From Starkeya sp. ORNL1 (GTDB lineage Bacteria; Pseudomonadota; Alphaproteobacteria; Rhizobiales; Xanthobacteraceae), in assembly GCF_012971745.1 (NCBI RefSeq), contig NZ_CP048834.1:744001-808000 (forward strand): a stretch of 64,000 nucleotides of DNA, in the 5' to 3' direction. How positions within the stretch are numbered: the stretch's first letter is position 1; each line of letters opens with the position of its first letter. Made by a program: the position numbers and the translations under genes. Under the pieces are notes generated by a model that ran no database searches, had not been told where the DNA came from, and was given only the letters and a program-made list of their open reading frames with translations. Below are positions 18,950 through 47,270 of this stretch, one piece after another.

Positions 18950-18964
18950 GAACACAAAAAGAAC
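18950..18964. promoter_or_regulatory. LexA (SOS) box upstream of lexA
   Basis: GAACACAAAAAGAAC is an exact GAAC-N7-GAAC direct repeat, the complement of the alphaproteobacterial LexA consensus GTTC-N7-GTTC. It lies 78 bases before the lexA start codon, as expected for autoregulation, in the region shared with the divergent atzF (about 140 bases from its start). Confidence 0.9.
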
Positions 18965-19042: not shown

Positions 19043-19735
19043 ATGCTCACCCGCAAACAGCATGAGCTGCTTCGCTTCATCCATGAACGGCTCAAGGAAA
19101 GCGGCGTGCCGCCCTCCTTCGAGGAGATGAAGGAAGCCCTCGATCTCCGCTCGAAATCAGGCATCCATCGCCTCATTACGGCGCTCGAAGAGCGTGGCTT
19201 CATTCGCCGCCTGCCGAATCGCGCTCGGGCGCTCGAAGTGGTGCGCCTGCCGGATAGCGTGCAGCCGATCCGCCCGTCGCGTAACTTCTCGCCGAACGTG
19301 GTCGAGGGTGGCCTCGGCCGGGTGCGCCCGCCCACAGAAGACGAGCCGTCGCGCCCGGTGCCCATCCCGGTGATGGGCCGCATCGCCGCCGGCACGCCGA
19401 TCTCCGCGATCCAGTCGCGCAGCCACACCATTTCGATGCCGCCGGAAATGCTGGCGAGTGGCGAACACTATGCGCTTGAGGTACGCGGCGATTCGATGAT
19501 CGAGGCTGGCATTCTCGACGGCGACCTCGCGCTGATCCGCAAGACCGAGACCGCGGACACGGGTGAGATCGTGGTGGCGCTGATCGATGATGAGGAAGCC
19601 ACCTTGAAGCGGTTGCGCAAGAAGGGGGCATCGGTCGCCCTCGAAGCGGCTAATCCAGCCTACGAGACCCGCATTTTCGGCCCTGACCGGGTGCGCATCC
19701 AGGGACGCCTGGTCGGCCTGTTCCGCCGTTATTGA
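19043..19735 (+). CDS. lexA: SOS repressor LexA
   Basis: 230 residues from ATG 19043, which has a GAGGGG ribosome site and gives the conserved start [20 protein letters not shown]. The N-terminal helix-turn-helix domain covers residues 1-70 ([20 protein letters not shown]). The self-cleavage bond is the Ala-Gly in [11 protein letters not shown], the catalytic Ser is in [10 protein letters not shown] and the Lys in [12 protein letters not shown]. RecA-stimulated cleavage inactivates it during DNA damage. An exact LexA box in its own upstream region shows autorepression. The last 7 bases overlap the end of the convergent comEC. Confidence 0.98.
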
Positions 19736-42856: not shown

Positions 42857-45800
42857 CTAATGCGCCTCGACCTGCACCACGCCGGGCACAGCCTTGATGG
42901 CGCCGGCGATCTGCGGCGACAGGGCGAAGCGGCCGGGCAGCTTCACCTCCACCTGGGTGTCGCCGCGCTCGCCGAGCAGCAGCACCAAAGCCACCTGCCC
43001 GTCCCCTCGCCCGCCGCCCGCGAGCGAATTGAGCCGCGCGGCGACGCTCTCCAGCGGATCGGGCGAGCGCAGGAAGATGCGCAGCCCCTTCTGCATCTTG
43101 GTTGCGGCGGCATCGAGCGGCTCGGCGCTTTGGATCCGCGCGCGCACATCCTCGCCCTGCAACTCCGCCGACACGTGGAGCAGCAGCGCGGTGCCGGGCT
43201 CCAGCACCTCGCGAAGTTGCGCCAGCCCTTCCGAGAAGATCACTGCCTCGAACTGGCCGGACGGGTCGGAAAGCCCGACAATGCCCATCTTGGTGCCGGT
43301 CTTGGTGCGGCGCTCCTGCCGGCTGACGACGGTCGCGGCGAGCCGGCCGGCGGCGGCGCCGGCGCGTACCGAGCGGGTGAAGTCGGTCCAGCGCTGCACC
43401 CGCAGGCGCTCCAGTGCCGGGGCGTAATCGTCGAGCGGATGGCCGGTGAGAAAGAAGCCGATGGCATCGTATTCGCGCTGCAGCCGCTCGGCCGGCAGCC
43501 ACGCCTCGGCGTTGGGCAATGGCAGGCTGGCGCGCGCCGCGCCGCTGCCGAACATGTCGTTCTGCCCGACCGCGGCGTCCGCTCCGAGCCGCGCCGCATG
43601 GGCGAGCACCGGATCGATGGCGGCGAGCGCGCGGGCACGATTCGGCTCCACCGTATCGAACGCGCCGGCGCTGACCAGGCTTTCCAAAGTCCGCTTGTTC
43701 AGTGCCTTGGCATTGATGCGGGCGGCGAAGTCGGCGAGATCGGCGAAGGGCCGTTCGCCGCGCGCCTCGACGATGGCATCGACCGCATGGCCGCCGACGC
43801 CCTTGATGGCGGCTAGCGCGTAATAAATCTTGCCGTCGCGCACCGCGAATTCACGGCCGGAATGGTTCACCGACGGCGGCACCACCACGATGCCGAGCCG
43901 CTGCGCTTCCTGGCGGAATTCGCCGAGCTTGTCGGTGTTCGACATATCGAGCGTCATCGACGCGGCGATGAATTCCGCCGGGTAGTTCGCCTTCATATAG
44001 GCGGTCTGGTAGGCGACCAGGGCATAGGCCGCCGCGTGGCTCTTGTTGAAGCCGTAGTCGGCGAACTTGGCGAGCAGGTCGAAAATTTCCGATGACTTGC
44101 CCTTGGTGACGCCGCGCTCCACCGCGCCGTCGACGAAGCGTTCGCGCTGCTTGTCCATCTCGGCGCGGATCTTCTTGCCCATGGCGCGGCGCAGCAGGTC
44201 GGCTTCGCCGAGCGAATAGCCCGACAGCGTCTGCGCGATCTGCATCACCTGTTCCTGGTAGATGATGACGCCGTACGTTTCCTTCAGGCTGGTCTCGAGC
44301 GCGGGGTGGACATACTCCGCCTTCTCCTGCCCGTTCTTCACCGCGCAATAGACCGGGATATTGGCCATCGGGCCCGGGCGGTACAGCGCGACGAGGGCGA
44401 TGATGTCCTCCAGCCGGTCCGGCTTCATGTCCACCAGCGCGCGCCGCATGCCGGAGCTTTCCACCTGGAACACGCCCACCGTCTCGCCGCGGGTGAGCAT
44501 GTCGTAGCTCTTCTTGTCGTCGAGCGGGATGGTGCCGAGATCGAGCGTGATGCCGCGTTGCGCCACCAGGCGCACCGCGGTCTGCAGCACGGTCAGGGTC
44601 TTGAGGCCGAGGAAGTCGAACTTCACCAGTCCGGCCTGCTCGATCCACTTCATATTGTATTGCGTAACCGGCATATCAGAACGCGGGTCGCGATAGAGCG
44701 GCACCAGTTCGGCGAGCGGACGATCGCCGATGACGATGCCGGCCGCGTGGGTCGAGGCGTGGCGGTTCAGCCCTTCGAGCCGCACCGCGATGTCGAAGGC
44801 GCGCTTCACCACCGGCGAGGAATCGCGCTCGGCCTGGAGGCGCGGCTCGTCATCGATGGCGCGGGCCAGCGTCACCGGATTGGCCGGGTTCTGCGGCACC
44901 AGCTTGCAGAGCTTGTCGACCTGGCCATAAGGCATCTCCAGCACGCGGCCGACGTCGCGCAGCACGCCGCGCGCCTGCAAGGTGCCGAACGTGATGATCT
45001 GTGCCACCTGATCGCGCCCGTAGCGCTGTTGCACATAGCGGATCACCTCGTCGCGCCGCTCCTGGCAGAAATCGATGTCGAAGTCCGGCATCGAGACGCG
45101 CTCGGGATTGAGGAAGCGCTCGAACAGCAGGCCGAAGCGCAGCGGATCAAGGTCGGTGATGGTCAGCGAATAGGCGACCAGCGAGCCGGCGCCCGAGCCG
45201 CGCCCCGGCCCGACCGGGATGCCCTGCGCCTTCGCCCATTTGATGAAGTCCGACACGATGAGGAAGTAGCCCGGGAACTGCATCCGGGTGATGATTTCCA
45301 GCTCGAAGGCCAGTCGGTCGCGATAGACCTTCTCGTCGAGGCCGGGCGCGGTGCCGTGCACGGCGAGCCGGCGGGCCAGCCCCTCCTCCGCCTGCAGGCG
45401 CAGTTCCTCAGCCTCGTCGCGGTCAAAGGTAAAGCGCGGCAGGATCGGCTTGATGGTGCGGGGGCGATAGGCGCAGCGCCGCGCCACTTCGATCGTATTG
45501 GCCAGCGCCTCGGGCAGATCGGCAAACAGCGCCATCATCTCGGCACGGGTGCGGAAGCGGTGCTCGGGGGTCAGTTGCCGGCGGTTACTCTCGGCCACCA
45601 GCCGGCCCTCGGCGATACAGACCAACGCGTCATGCGCCTCATAGTCGTCTGTGCTGGCGAAGAAGGGTTCGTTGGTGGCGACGATGGGCAGTTCGGCTCG
45701 ATAGGCCAGTTCCAGCAGTTGGGCCTCCACCGCCCGCTCCTCGGCCGCGCCGTGACGCTGGACCTCGACATAAAGCCGGTCGCCGAACAGGCGCGCCAGC

Positions 45801-46300
45801 GTGGCCAGCCGGGTCTCGGCGAGTTCGCCATTGCCCGACGCGATCGCCCGGTCGATCGGGCCATCCGGCCCGCCAGTAAGCGCGATCAAGCCATCGGTCG
45901 TGTCCTCCAGCCACGCACTGCGGATATGCGGTGCGCCATCGGTGGCGGTGTCGAGATAGCTGCGCGAGACCAGCGCCATGAGGTTGCGCCAGCCATGCTC
46001 ATCCGCGGCGAGCAGAACGATGCGCGGCCGCGTCGTTTGCGGCCCGCGGGCGTTCTGCTGATCGGCGAAGTCCACCGCCACCGCGCAGCCGACGATAGGC
46101 TGGATGCCGGAGCCGGCCAGCTTCTCGGAGAATTCCAGCGCACCAAACAGGTTTCCGGTGTCGGTGAGCGCGAGAGCCGGCTGCTTGTCCTTCTTCGCCA
46201 GTTCGGCGAGCTTGCCGATGGTGAGCGCGCCTTCGAGCAGCGAGAAAGACGAGTGGACGTGCAGATGCACGAACCCAAGCTCAGACCCTGCCATCGCCAC
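42857..46300 (-). CDS. dnaE: DNA polymerase III alpha subunit (DnaE1)
   Basis: 1147 residues, the replicative polymerase. The N-terminal PHP domain begins FVHLHVHSSFSLLEGALTIG. The catalytic aspartates are in SMPDFDIDFCQERRDEVIRY near residue 405, and the nearby GPGRGSGAGSLVAYSLTITD belongs to the palm/phosphate region. Further on are GKKIRAEMDKQRERFVDGAV, NKSHAAAYALVAYQTAYMKA and the tandem helix-hairpin-helix. An OB fold (KTGTKMGIVGLSDPSGQFEA) and a C-terminal tau-binding region finish the chain. Length and PHP context favour DnaE1 rather than the error-prone DnaE2. A 32-residue membrane peptide with LexA boxes lies 83 bases upstream on the same strand. Confidence 0.97.
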   Translation of the reverse strand: MAMAGSELGFVHLHVHSSFSLLEGALTIGKLAELAKKDKQPALALTDTGNLFGALEFSEKLAGSGIQPIVGCAVAVDFADQQNARGPQTTRPRIVLLAADEHGWRNLMALVSRSYLDTATDGAPHIRSAWLEDTTDGLIALTGGPDGPIDRAIASGNGELAETRLATLARLFGDRLYVEVQRHGAAEERAVEAQLLELAYRAELPIVATNEPFFASTDDYEAHDALVCIAEGRLVAESNRRQLTPEHRFRTRAEMMALFADLPEALANTIEVARRCAYRPRTIKPILPRFTFDRDEAEELRLQAEEGLARRLAVHGTAPGLDEKVYRDRLAFELEIITRMQFPGYFLIVSDFIKWAKAQGIPVGPGRGSGAGSLVAYSLTITDLDPLRFGLLFERFLNPERVSMPDFDIDFCQERRDEVIRYVQQRYGRDQVAQIITFGTLQARGVLRDVGRVLEMPYGQVDKLCKLVPQNPANPVTLARAIDDEPRLQAERDSSPVVKRAFDIAVRLEGLNRHASTHAAGIVIGDRPLAELVPLYRDPRSDMPVTQYNMKWIEQAGLVKFDFLGLKTLTVLQTAVRLVAQRGITLDLGTIPLDDKKSYDMLTRGETVGVFQVESSGMRRALVDMKPDRLEDIIALVALYRPGPMANIPVYCAVKNGQEKAEYVHPALETSLKETYGVIIYQEQVMQIAQTLSGYSLGEADLLRRAMGKKIRAEMDKQRERFVDGAVERGVTKGKSSEIFDLLAKFADYGFNKSHAAAYALVAYQTAYMKANYPAEFIAASMTLDMSNTDKLGEFRQEAQRLGIVVVPPSVNHSGREFAVRDGKIYYALAAIKGVGGHAVDAIVEARGERPFADLADFAARINAKALNKRTLESLVSAGAFDTVEPNRARALAAIDPVLAHAARLGADAAVGQNDMFGSGAARASLPLPNAEAWLPAERLQREYDAIGFFLTGHPLDDYAPALERLRVQRWTDFTRSVRAGAAAGRLAATVVSRQERRTKTGTKMGIVGLSDPSGQFEAVIFSEGLAQLREVLEPGTALLLHVSAELQGEDVRARIQSAEPLDAAATKMQKGLRIFLRSPDPLESVAARLNSLAGGGRGDGQVALVLLLGERGDTQVEVKLPGRFALSPQIAGAIKAVPGVVQVEAH

Positions 46301-46383
46301 TCTCCTCGCCGACTCGATCCGGCGAATGGTGGGGATACCGCGCGGCCGCGTCTACGGTGCTGGCCGTGCAGTCCCCGTCTTCC

Positions 46384-46482
46384 TCAGGCGCCGCCGATCA
46401 ACCCGGCCCAGGCGCCGATCATGGCGACGAACAGGCCGATGGACGAGAGCGCAGCGACTTCACGGAGCAGGATGCGGATCAT
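46384..46482 (-). CDS. SOS-controlled 32-residue single-span membrane peptide
   Basis: Start MIRILLREVAALSSIGLFVA, end MIGAWAGLIGGA, then TGA. A strong ribosome site GGAGG lies five bases before the ATG; an alternative in-frame ATG four codons earlier has no such site. Residues 2-8 carry Arg-Ile-Leu-Leu-Arg-Glu and residues 9-30 form one hydrophobic helix, so an inner-membrane microprotein with a short basic cytosolic end is likely. Two perfect LexA boxes (46496-46510 and 46542-46556) flank a TTGACT hexamer just upstream. Size, topology and SOS control recall SidA, the 29-residue division inhibitor of Caulobacter, but homology was not tested. It may be co-transcribed with dnaE. Reality of the gene rests on the ribosome site, codon pattern and operators. 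Confidence 0.75.
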   Translation of the reverse strand: MIRILLREVAALSSIGLFVAMIGAWAGLIGGA

Positions 46483-46495
46483 GGCGACCTCCATG

Positions 46496-46510
46496 GAACA
46501 TAGGAAGAAC
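46496..46510. promoter_or_regulatory. LexA box, proximal to the microprotein start
   Basis: GAACATAGGAAGAAC is an exact GAAC-N7-GAAC repeat. It ends 14 bases before the microprotein ATG and overlaps the expected -10 region for the TTGACT hexamer at 46532-46537 (minus strand, 17-base spacing to 46509-46514). Confidence 0.88.
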
Positions 46511-46541
46511 ATTGTTGCCCTTCCGTTCCAGAGTCAAATCC

Positions 46542-46556
46542 GTTCCACATCTGTTC
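46542..46556. promoter_or_regulatory. LexA box, distal to the microprotein start
   Basis: GTTCCACATCTGTTC is an exact GTTC-N7-GTTC repeat, 46 bases (start to start) from the proximal box and immediately upstream of the TTGACT hexamer. The two boxes bracket the presumed promoter. Confidence 0.88.
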
Positions 46557-46589
46557 TCGTTCGTCGTTACCGAAATCCTAATGCCAGTC

Positions 46590-47270
46590 TCAGACGAGCT
46601 CGACGACCCGCCCTTCGCGGAGCGTGACGCGCCGATGCATCTGGCTGGCGAGGTCCATATTGTGGGTGGCGATGATTGCCGCGAGGCCGGTGGCCTCGAC
46701 GAGCTGGGACAGCGCATGGAACACATGGGCGCTGGTCTTGGGATCGAGATTGCCGGTCGGCTCGTCGGCAAGCAGCACGCGCGGCGCATTCGCCACGGCG
46801 CGGGCAATGGCGACGCGCTGCTGCTCGCCGCCGGAGAGCTCGCCCGGGCGGTGCTGCAGCCGCTCGGCAAGGCCGAGATAGCTGAGCAACTCGGTTGCCC
46901 GCACCGAGGCTTCGCGCTTGGTGAGGCCGCGGATCATCTGCGGCAGCATGACATTCTCGAGCGCCGAGAATTCCGGCAGCAAATGGTGGAACTGGTAGAC
47001 GAAGCCGACATCGAGCCGCCGGATGCGGGTGCGATCGGCATCGGGCAGGCCCGCCGTGGGACGACCCGCGATCAGTACCTCGCCGGCGTCCTGGTGCTCC
47101 AGCAGACCGGCAATGTGCAGCAGTGTCGACTTGCCGGTGCCGGACGGCGCGACGAGGGCGACGGACTGGCCCTCCATCACTTCGAAGTCGGCGCCGCGCA
47201 GGATGTCGAGCGTGCCTTCGCCTTGCACGTAACGGCGCTCGATGCCGGTCAGACGGAGAGCGGAGGCCAT
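46590..47270 (-). CDS. lolD: lipoprotein-releasing ABC transporter ATPase
   Basis: 226 residues. LolD powers LolCE extraction of outer-membrane lipoproteins from the inner membrane for LolA. Walker [21 protein letters not shown] near residue 40. Signature: [14 protein letters not shown]. Walker [21 protein letters not shown]; switch His in [11 protein letters not shown]. The Q-loop is in [20 protein letters not shown], a segment typical for LolD. It starts 3 bases after the lolC stop, so proS, lolC and lolD form one operon. Confidence 0.96.

Follow-up and report, generated by a model that had tools for sequence, protein, structure and literature searches.

Why would a bacterium set two LexA operators in front of a reading frame of only 32 codons, immediately upstream of the gene for its replicative DNA polymerase? 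The question is raised by a locus of Starkeya sp. ORNL1 lying in a 64,000-nucleotide stretch of DNA, the whole of which is called the window here. The answer favored below is that the frame is a sidA-type gene, which quite probably encodes a LexA-repressed, damage-induced membrane peptide that would arrest division via the late divisome (FtsW). SidA itself is described as a 29-aa, SOS-induced inner-membrane inhibitor that contacts FtsW and FtsN (PMC4211646). The parts of the locus are as follows.

42857..46300, minus strand: dnaE, replicative DNA polymerase III alpha subunit (NF004226, 1504 bits against a cutoff of 1002)
46384..46482, minus strand: sidA-like gene, stop codon included, for a 32-aa peptide, MIRILLREVAALSSIGLFVAMIGAWAGLIGGA, with a predicted single membrane helix (direct reading, homologues, pN/pS, and AlphaFold2)
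46488..46492, minus strand: GGAGG ribosome-binding site, 5 nt 5' of the ATG (direct reading; SD-like site in 118 of 130 homologues)
46496..46510, minus strand: start-proximal LexA box, GTTC-N7-GTTC on the minus strand, GAACATAGGAAGAAC, exact motif, probably over the -10 element
46532..46537, minus strand: TTGACT, presumed -35 hexamer between the two LexA boxes (TTGA[CT] kept in 27 of 29 genus loci)
46542..46556, minus strand: distal LexA box, GAAC-N7-GAAC on the minus strand, GTTCCACATCTGTTC, exact motif, upstream of the presumed -35 hexamer
46590..47270, minus strand: lolD, lipoprotein-release ABC ATPase, upstream neighbor (best match TIGR02211, 246 bits, below the cutoff of 308)

The coding part of the sidA-like gene runs from 46387 to 46482 on the minus strand (32 codons), with its ATG at 46482-46480 and its stop codon at 46386-46384. 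The original prediction had called this frame, its ribosome site, and a dnaE start 83 bases downstream on the same strand, and direct reading agrees on each point: GGAGG stands 5 nt before the ATG, and the dnaE frame opens at GTG 46300 on the minus strand, 83 nt after the stop codon of the sidA-like gene. On the other side, lolD adjoins a lolCE gene, which passes its own cutoff. A 42-aa version of the frame, taken from a mechanical list of open reading frames, begins at ATG 46512 and was rejected. It overlaps a LexA box, the G of its ATG being base 1 of that box, and its start is not universal in the genus. The upstream ATG occurs in many genus members, and L010, L017, and L018, for example, have an in-frame stop before the 32-aa start, which is the commoner start in the genus and has the ribosome site. 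No family in Pfam or NCBIfam was found for the 32-aa window peptide.

Is so short a frame a gene at all? It is present in 29 of the 30 genomes of the genus, the one without it (G021) being the most fragmented and contaminated, and both LexA boxes and the ribosome site are kept in all 29 loci. Searched by tblastn at E values up to 10, the 32-residue peptide had matches in 61 of 101 genomes, its own included, the weakest of them being chance. A comparison of synonymous with nonsynonymous conservation, the check that the original prediction proposed, finds the frame under purifying selection. Across the 29 genus sequences (27 of them distinct), pooled pN/pS is 0.30 in the sidA-like frame, the five alternative frames giving 0.98, 4.59, 1.08, 0.75, and 3.82, and the nonmajority letters at codon positions 1, 2, and 3 number 108, 29, and 211. 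On this evidence the frame is a real gene, and a noncoding or chance reading is rejected. In 28 of the 29 loci, the gene is followed by dnaE in the same orientation. At L035 (genome G016), lolD, both boxes, and the peptide gene are kept, and dnaE is replaced by other DNA right after the stop codon.

What of the operators? The two exact LexA boxes claimed at 46496 and 46542 are there on direct reading. The exact motif occurs 122 times (56 + 66) in the 6,286,188-base genome, compared with 75 times (39 + 36) for a reversed-motif control, and the genome-wide count leads one to expect about 0.0012 occurrences per 61-nt span. The lexA gene lies in the same window (TIGR00498 match at 19046-19729, plus strand), with an exact LexA box before it at 18950-18964, and the recA gene of the same genome has an exact box upstream at G000:C1:224228-224242; the motif sits 80 to 140 nt before the matched part of both genes. 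Because the host's own lexA and recA carry it, LexA very likely has the GAAC/GTTC-N7 motif as its operator in this host. A small correction to the original prediction concerns the promoter. TTGACT does lie between the boxes, and TTGA[CT] is conserved there in 27 of the 29 genus loci (L026 and L033 have TGGAC), but a scan of 46200-46700 gave no sigma-70 consensus promoter. The promoter therefore rests on the conserved TTGA[CT], and a -10 element under the start-proximal box is a guess. Elsewhere in the same genome, at G000:C1:1288673-1288749 and so beyond the window, two further exact LexA motifs form an opposed pair whose starts are 62 nt apart; among the 100 motif places listed, out of 122, this is the tightest pair apart from that of the sidA-like gene.

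How widely is this arrangement shared? A profile (A1) was built from 26 homologues, the choice of homologues being iterative, and at E values up to 0.1 it had matches in 124 of the 297 genomes from the order, some by chance; the DNA around the best match or matches was read for 90 of these 124. The 151 loci scanned are those of the order, genus, and family after 7 duplicates and 26 chance matches of a class search were dropped. At 130 of them, a homologue scoring at least 10 bits and 27 to 38 aa in length lies on the dnaE strand, 8 to 778 nt (median, 147 nt) before dnaE; the remaining 21 are paralogues, stretches that end before dnaE or lack it, and chance matches. An exact LexA box occurs within 120 nt upstream in 116 of the 130, loci that were picked by peptide sequence and not by their boxes and that include many close relatives, so that the counts are not independent events. 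As controls for the box, the next 120 nt farther upstream held one at 3 of the 130 loci, the reversed motif occurred at none (0 of 130), and altered spacers (5, 6, 8, and 9) gave 0 to 3 of 130. An SD-like site is found in 118 of the 130, versus 9 at a control offset. The boxes are thus conserved together with the frame, as the original prediction suggested checking, and the position before dnaE is kept as well. Seven of the 14 homologues that have no exact LexA box within 120 nt belong to one genus, g373 (L149-L151, L153-L155, and L184). Here, L149 has an exact box 120 to 200 nt upstream, and the best match within 200 nt in the other six has one or two mismatches, which amounts to little; SOS control of the dnaE-side peptide may have been lost or changed in this genus.

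A class-wide search with the first model, in which 28 of 385 genomes matched, was set aside, since the only real matches were those in G000, G052, and G289; 26 further matches had no dnaE in the surrounding stretch, and most lay inside long frames. The first model is too narrow for a search of the class. Stretches anchored on dnaE were also hand-picked from the dnaE matches listed, regardless of peptide. Among 40 genomes sampled in this way from the order (39 lacking any A1 match, and G564 with a weak match elsewhere only), a homologue of at least 8 bits was found on the sense strand in 16 versus 0 on the antisense strand; for 60 genomes of the class, one stretch being only 200 nt long, the counts were 5 and 0. 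It follows that the first model misses members and that the gene is common in the order and, by this model, rare in the class. A further 12 stretches, which were chosen by their GAAC-N7-GAAC box and so prove nothing alone, had no 5-bit model match. Behind the box in eight of them (six from the class and two from the order) starts a frame of 32 to 42 aa that has a ribosome site, such as MSEWVKDTAALFVLGAVMWSGFALTAAAQAAG; no frame came from three, and one yielded only the start of dnaE.

To what known protein is the peptide related? The original prediction likened it to SidA of Caulobacter, and the relationship proves stronger than was stated. Named Caulobacter genomes were reached through FtsZ (80 loci), and the genomes of 20 loci were searched for dnaE. 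The profile picked a frame before dnaE in 18 of the 20, weakly in two Asticcacaulis (3.9 and 6.1 bits), and an exact LexA box precedes the frame in 11 of these 18; in Amylibacter and Aliiroseovarius (2 of the 20), it picked no frame before dnaE. The Caulobacter frame at this place is 29 aa long (30 in C. segnis FS). Two such frames score 70 and 74 bits on the NCBI SidA model NF033228 (cutoff, 35), and the 70-bit frame, of 29 aa, is identical to P0047, a protein that NCBI names SidA, as are others like it. Judged by this identity, the Caulobacter gene at the corresponding place before dnaE is the division inhibitor SidA itself. Members from Kaistia, Ancylobacter, Devosia, and Rhodobium in the same protein list are named hypothetical protein, and Maricaulis, Parvibaculum, Devosia, and Acuticoccus have frames of the same kind at this place before dnaE.

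The profiles are homologous as well. Profile-profile comparison gave 80.9%, E 1.3e-5, and a score of 23.5 with a strict Caulobacteraceae set (11 rows) and 95.2% and E 2.7e-8 with a wider set, each E value being for one comparison. As controls, 200 column shuffles reached at most 16.2 (0 of 200 as high), the reversed profile 5.8 (0.1%), and 100 decoys at most 13.0 (0 of 100). Does this make the peptide a SidA as curated? NF033228 is an equivalog model with a 35-bit cutoff; the window protein matched 0 families, 1 of 37 homologues matched at E 0.067, and the cutoff was passed by 0 of 101 relatives and 1 of 14 control genomes. Being below that cutoff, the peptide is best called a SidA homologue that falls outside the curated family as drawn. 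In a broader sense it is SidA-like, having profile homology, the place before dnaE, about 30 aa with one predicted helix, and, by sequence, a LexA operator at the promoter (the two exact boxes). Given the shared place before dnaE and the profile homology, the window gene is read as a probable orthologue of Caulobacter sidA.

The likeness to SidA (NF033228) therefore takes in size (29 versus 32 aa), one membrane helix, a place directly before dnaE, a homologous profile, and, in part of the genomes, a GAAC/GTTC-N7 LexA box upstream. In Caulobacter, the LexA motif is given as GTTC-N7-GTTC, and cells without lexA are reported to filament through SidA (PMC12700426). There are differences, too. Identity is about 34% over 29 residues, with the window peptide below the curated cutoff; a tryptophan at position 25, found in 36 of the 37 window-set members, is missing from SidA, whose own W comes two residues after its F; and the window locus has two exact LexA boxes, versus one or none in the Caulobacteraceae examined. 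Function has been demonstrated for SidA only, and the open-licence literature yielded no functional data on members outside the Caulobacteraceae.

How might the peptide act? AlphaFold2 predicts one helix, residues 2 to 30, at a mean pLDDT of 94.5, though a lone helix says little, and the best 17-residue hydropathy is 1.98. The original prediction had a short basic segment and a membrane helix: one helix is predicted here too, but the N terminus is not simply basic, with R3 and R7 followed by E8, and an acidic residue at position 8 is in fact the conserved N-terminal feature of the homologues. Across 37 members, the most conserved residues are F18 (37 of 37), W25 (36), D/E8 (36), and A11 (31), and conservation is periodic at 104 degrees, only 6 of 5,000 shuffles being as strong. 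Positions 8, 11, 15, 18, 22, and 25 (D/E8, A11, L/I15, F18, I/V/L22, and W25) fall on one helix face, which is not clean, because positions 10, 12, and 14 are conserved too. A conserved shared face is to be expected where one helix binds another.

These features allow a sequence of events to be proposed. LexA on the two promoter operators would keep the sidA-like gene off. Upon DNA damage, RecA would become active, LexA would be cleaved, and the 32-residue inner-membrane peptide would be made. Like SidA, the peptide would most likely dock, by its conserved helix face, on the late divisome (FtsW together with FtsN and FtsI), and septal wall synthesis would be held off through FtsW until repair was done. 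We infer damage induction, membrane insertion, and cotranscription of dnaE, and, by homology to SidA, FtsW as the target and division arrest as the outcome. SidA has been placed on TM7 of FtsW by models of low confidence (PMC13396833). Two sets of known proteins, compared by description only, follow a similar plan. DidA of Caulobacter is likewise small, has a single helix, is induced by damage, and inhibits the late divisome, but it has 71 aa, is SOS independent (DriD), and binds FtsN (PMC4211646). YneA, SosA, and ChiZ are SOS-induced small membrane division inhibitors, with FtsW proposed as their common target, but they belong to other phyla (PMC13396833).

A single hydrophobic helix could also act in other ways. 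TisB and DinQ of E. coli are SOS-induced single-helix peptides that act on the membrane itself. A peptide of this type, for which control by an antisense RNA is another hallmark, would depolarize the membrane and slow metabolism rather than block the divisome. The window peptide resembles these, by description only, in its similar size, single helix, and SOS promoter, and DinQ is reported as an SOS-regulated, toxic single-transmembrane peptide (PMC3567139). The difference lies in their own action on the membrane, and the homology and common place that the window gene shares with sidA make a depolarizing peptide unlikely.

Two further accounts would shift the weight from the peptide to dnaE. 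Could the frame be a leader whose translation regulates dnaE, the peptide itself being functionless? It does stand just 5' of dnaE, in the same orientation, at 130 of the 151 scanned loci, but selection acts at the amino acid level (pN/pS 0.30), the distance between the two ranges from 8 to 778 nt, L035 keeps the gene and boxes with no dnaE behind them, and there are paralogues away from dnaE, all of which leaves a leader hardly probable. Or do the LexA boxes serve dnaE, in what is mainly a damage-inducible dnaE operon with the peptide as a minor passenger? One list of genes with reported SOS regulation includes dnaE of C. crescentus (PMC3323433), and no terminator-like site separates the window genes; yet the boxes stand directly before the peptide gene, and the Caulobacter peptide at the corresponding place is SidA, a proven division inhibitor, so a passenger role is very unlikely.

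A sidA-type gene, the preferred reading, still leaves room for dnaE to respond to damage. The scan of 46200-46700 found no terminator-like site between the peptide gene and dnaE, and SOS induction of dnaE by read-through from the peptide gene promoter is possible. dnaE may share the transcript of the peptide gene, with the boxes standing before the latter. This would offer a possible explanation for the SOS regulation credited to Caulobacter dnaE (CC1926 in one table, PMC1839093), in that the LexA site may belong first to the peptide gene.

What would such a gene mean for these bacteria? As far as the open-licence texts go, SidA appears as a Caulobacter protein, with none recognized as SidA outside Caulobacter, and no account of SOS division arrest was found for the Hyphomicrobiales (rhizobia and their relatives). 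The locus offers a one-gene candidate for that arrest at a fixed address, 5' of dnaE, in many Hyphomicrobiales genomes, and the conserved helix positions D/E8, A11, F18, and W25 are handles for probing the FtsW contact. A more tentative proposal, somewhat doubtful as it stands, is that sidA-dnaE is an ancient alphaproteobacterial module in which one LexA promoter would both arrest division, via a fast-evolving peptide of 27 to 47 residues, and raise the replicative polymerase. The current SidA model would miss its non-Caulobacteraceae members, and some accessory, phage-like islands would encode a SidA-like peptide of their own with no exact LexA box, possibly for SOS-independent arrest of the host.

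Copies away from dnaE do exist. A second SidA-like peptide of 32 to 34 aa is encoded away from dnaE in 9 of the 30 genus genomes (L039, L040, L041, L042, L043, L044, L045, L075, and L076). Over the 250 nt upstream, none of the nine has an exact LexA box; L041 and L045 have a box with a single mismatch. The neighboring proteins, among them ProQ/FINO (L043), DUF1643 (L039), and others with matches to PHROGs families, suggest that these are mobile or phage-like islands. A Mu-like prophage origin was considered and rejected, GemA being found in one of the nine genomes and not near the copy. In the phage collections, the one paralogue peptide tested had no match, and the ProQ neighbor had one weak partial match, with no relative in viral_contigs. 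In two genomes of genus g373 (L170 and L171), with no LexA box of up to one mismatch within 250 nt, a second SidA-like peptide of 27 aa is encoded some 0.6 kb upstream of a gene judged by eye, from its sequence, to be ssb-like.
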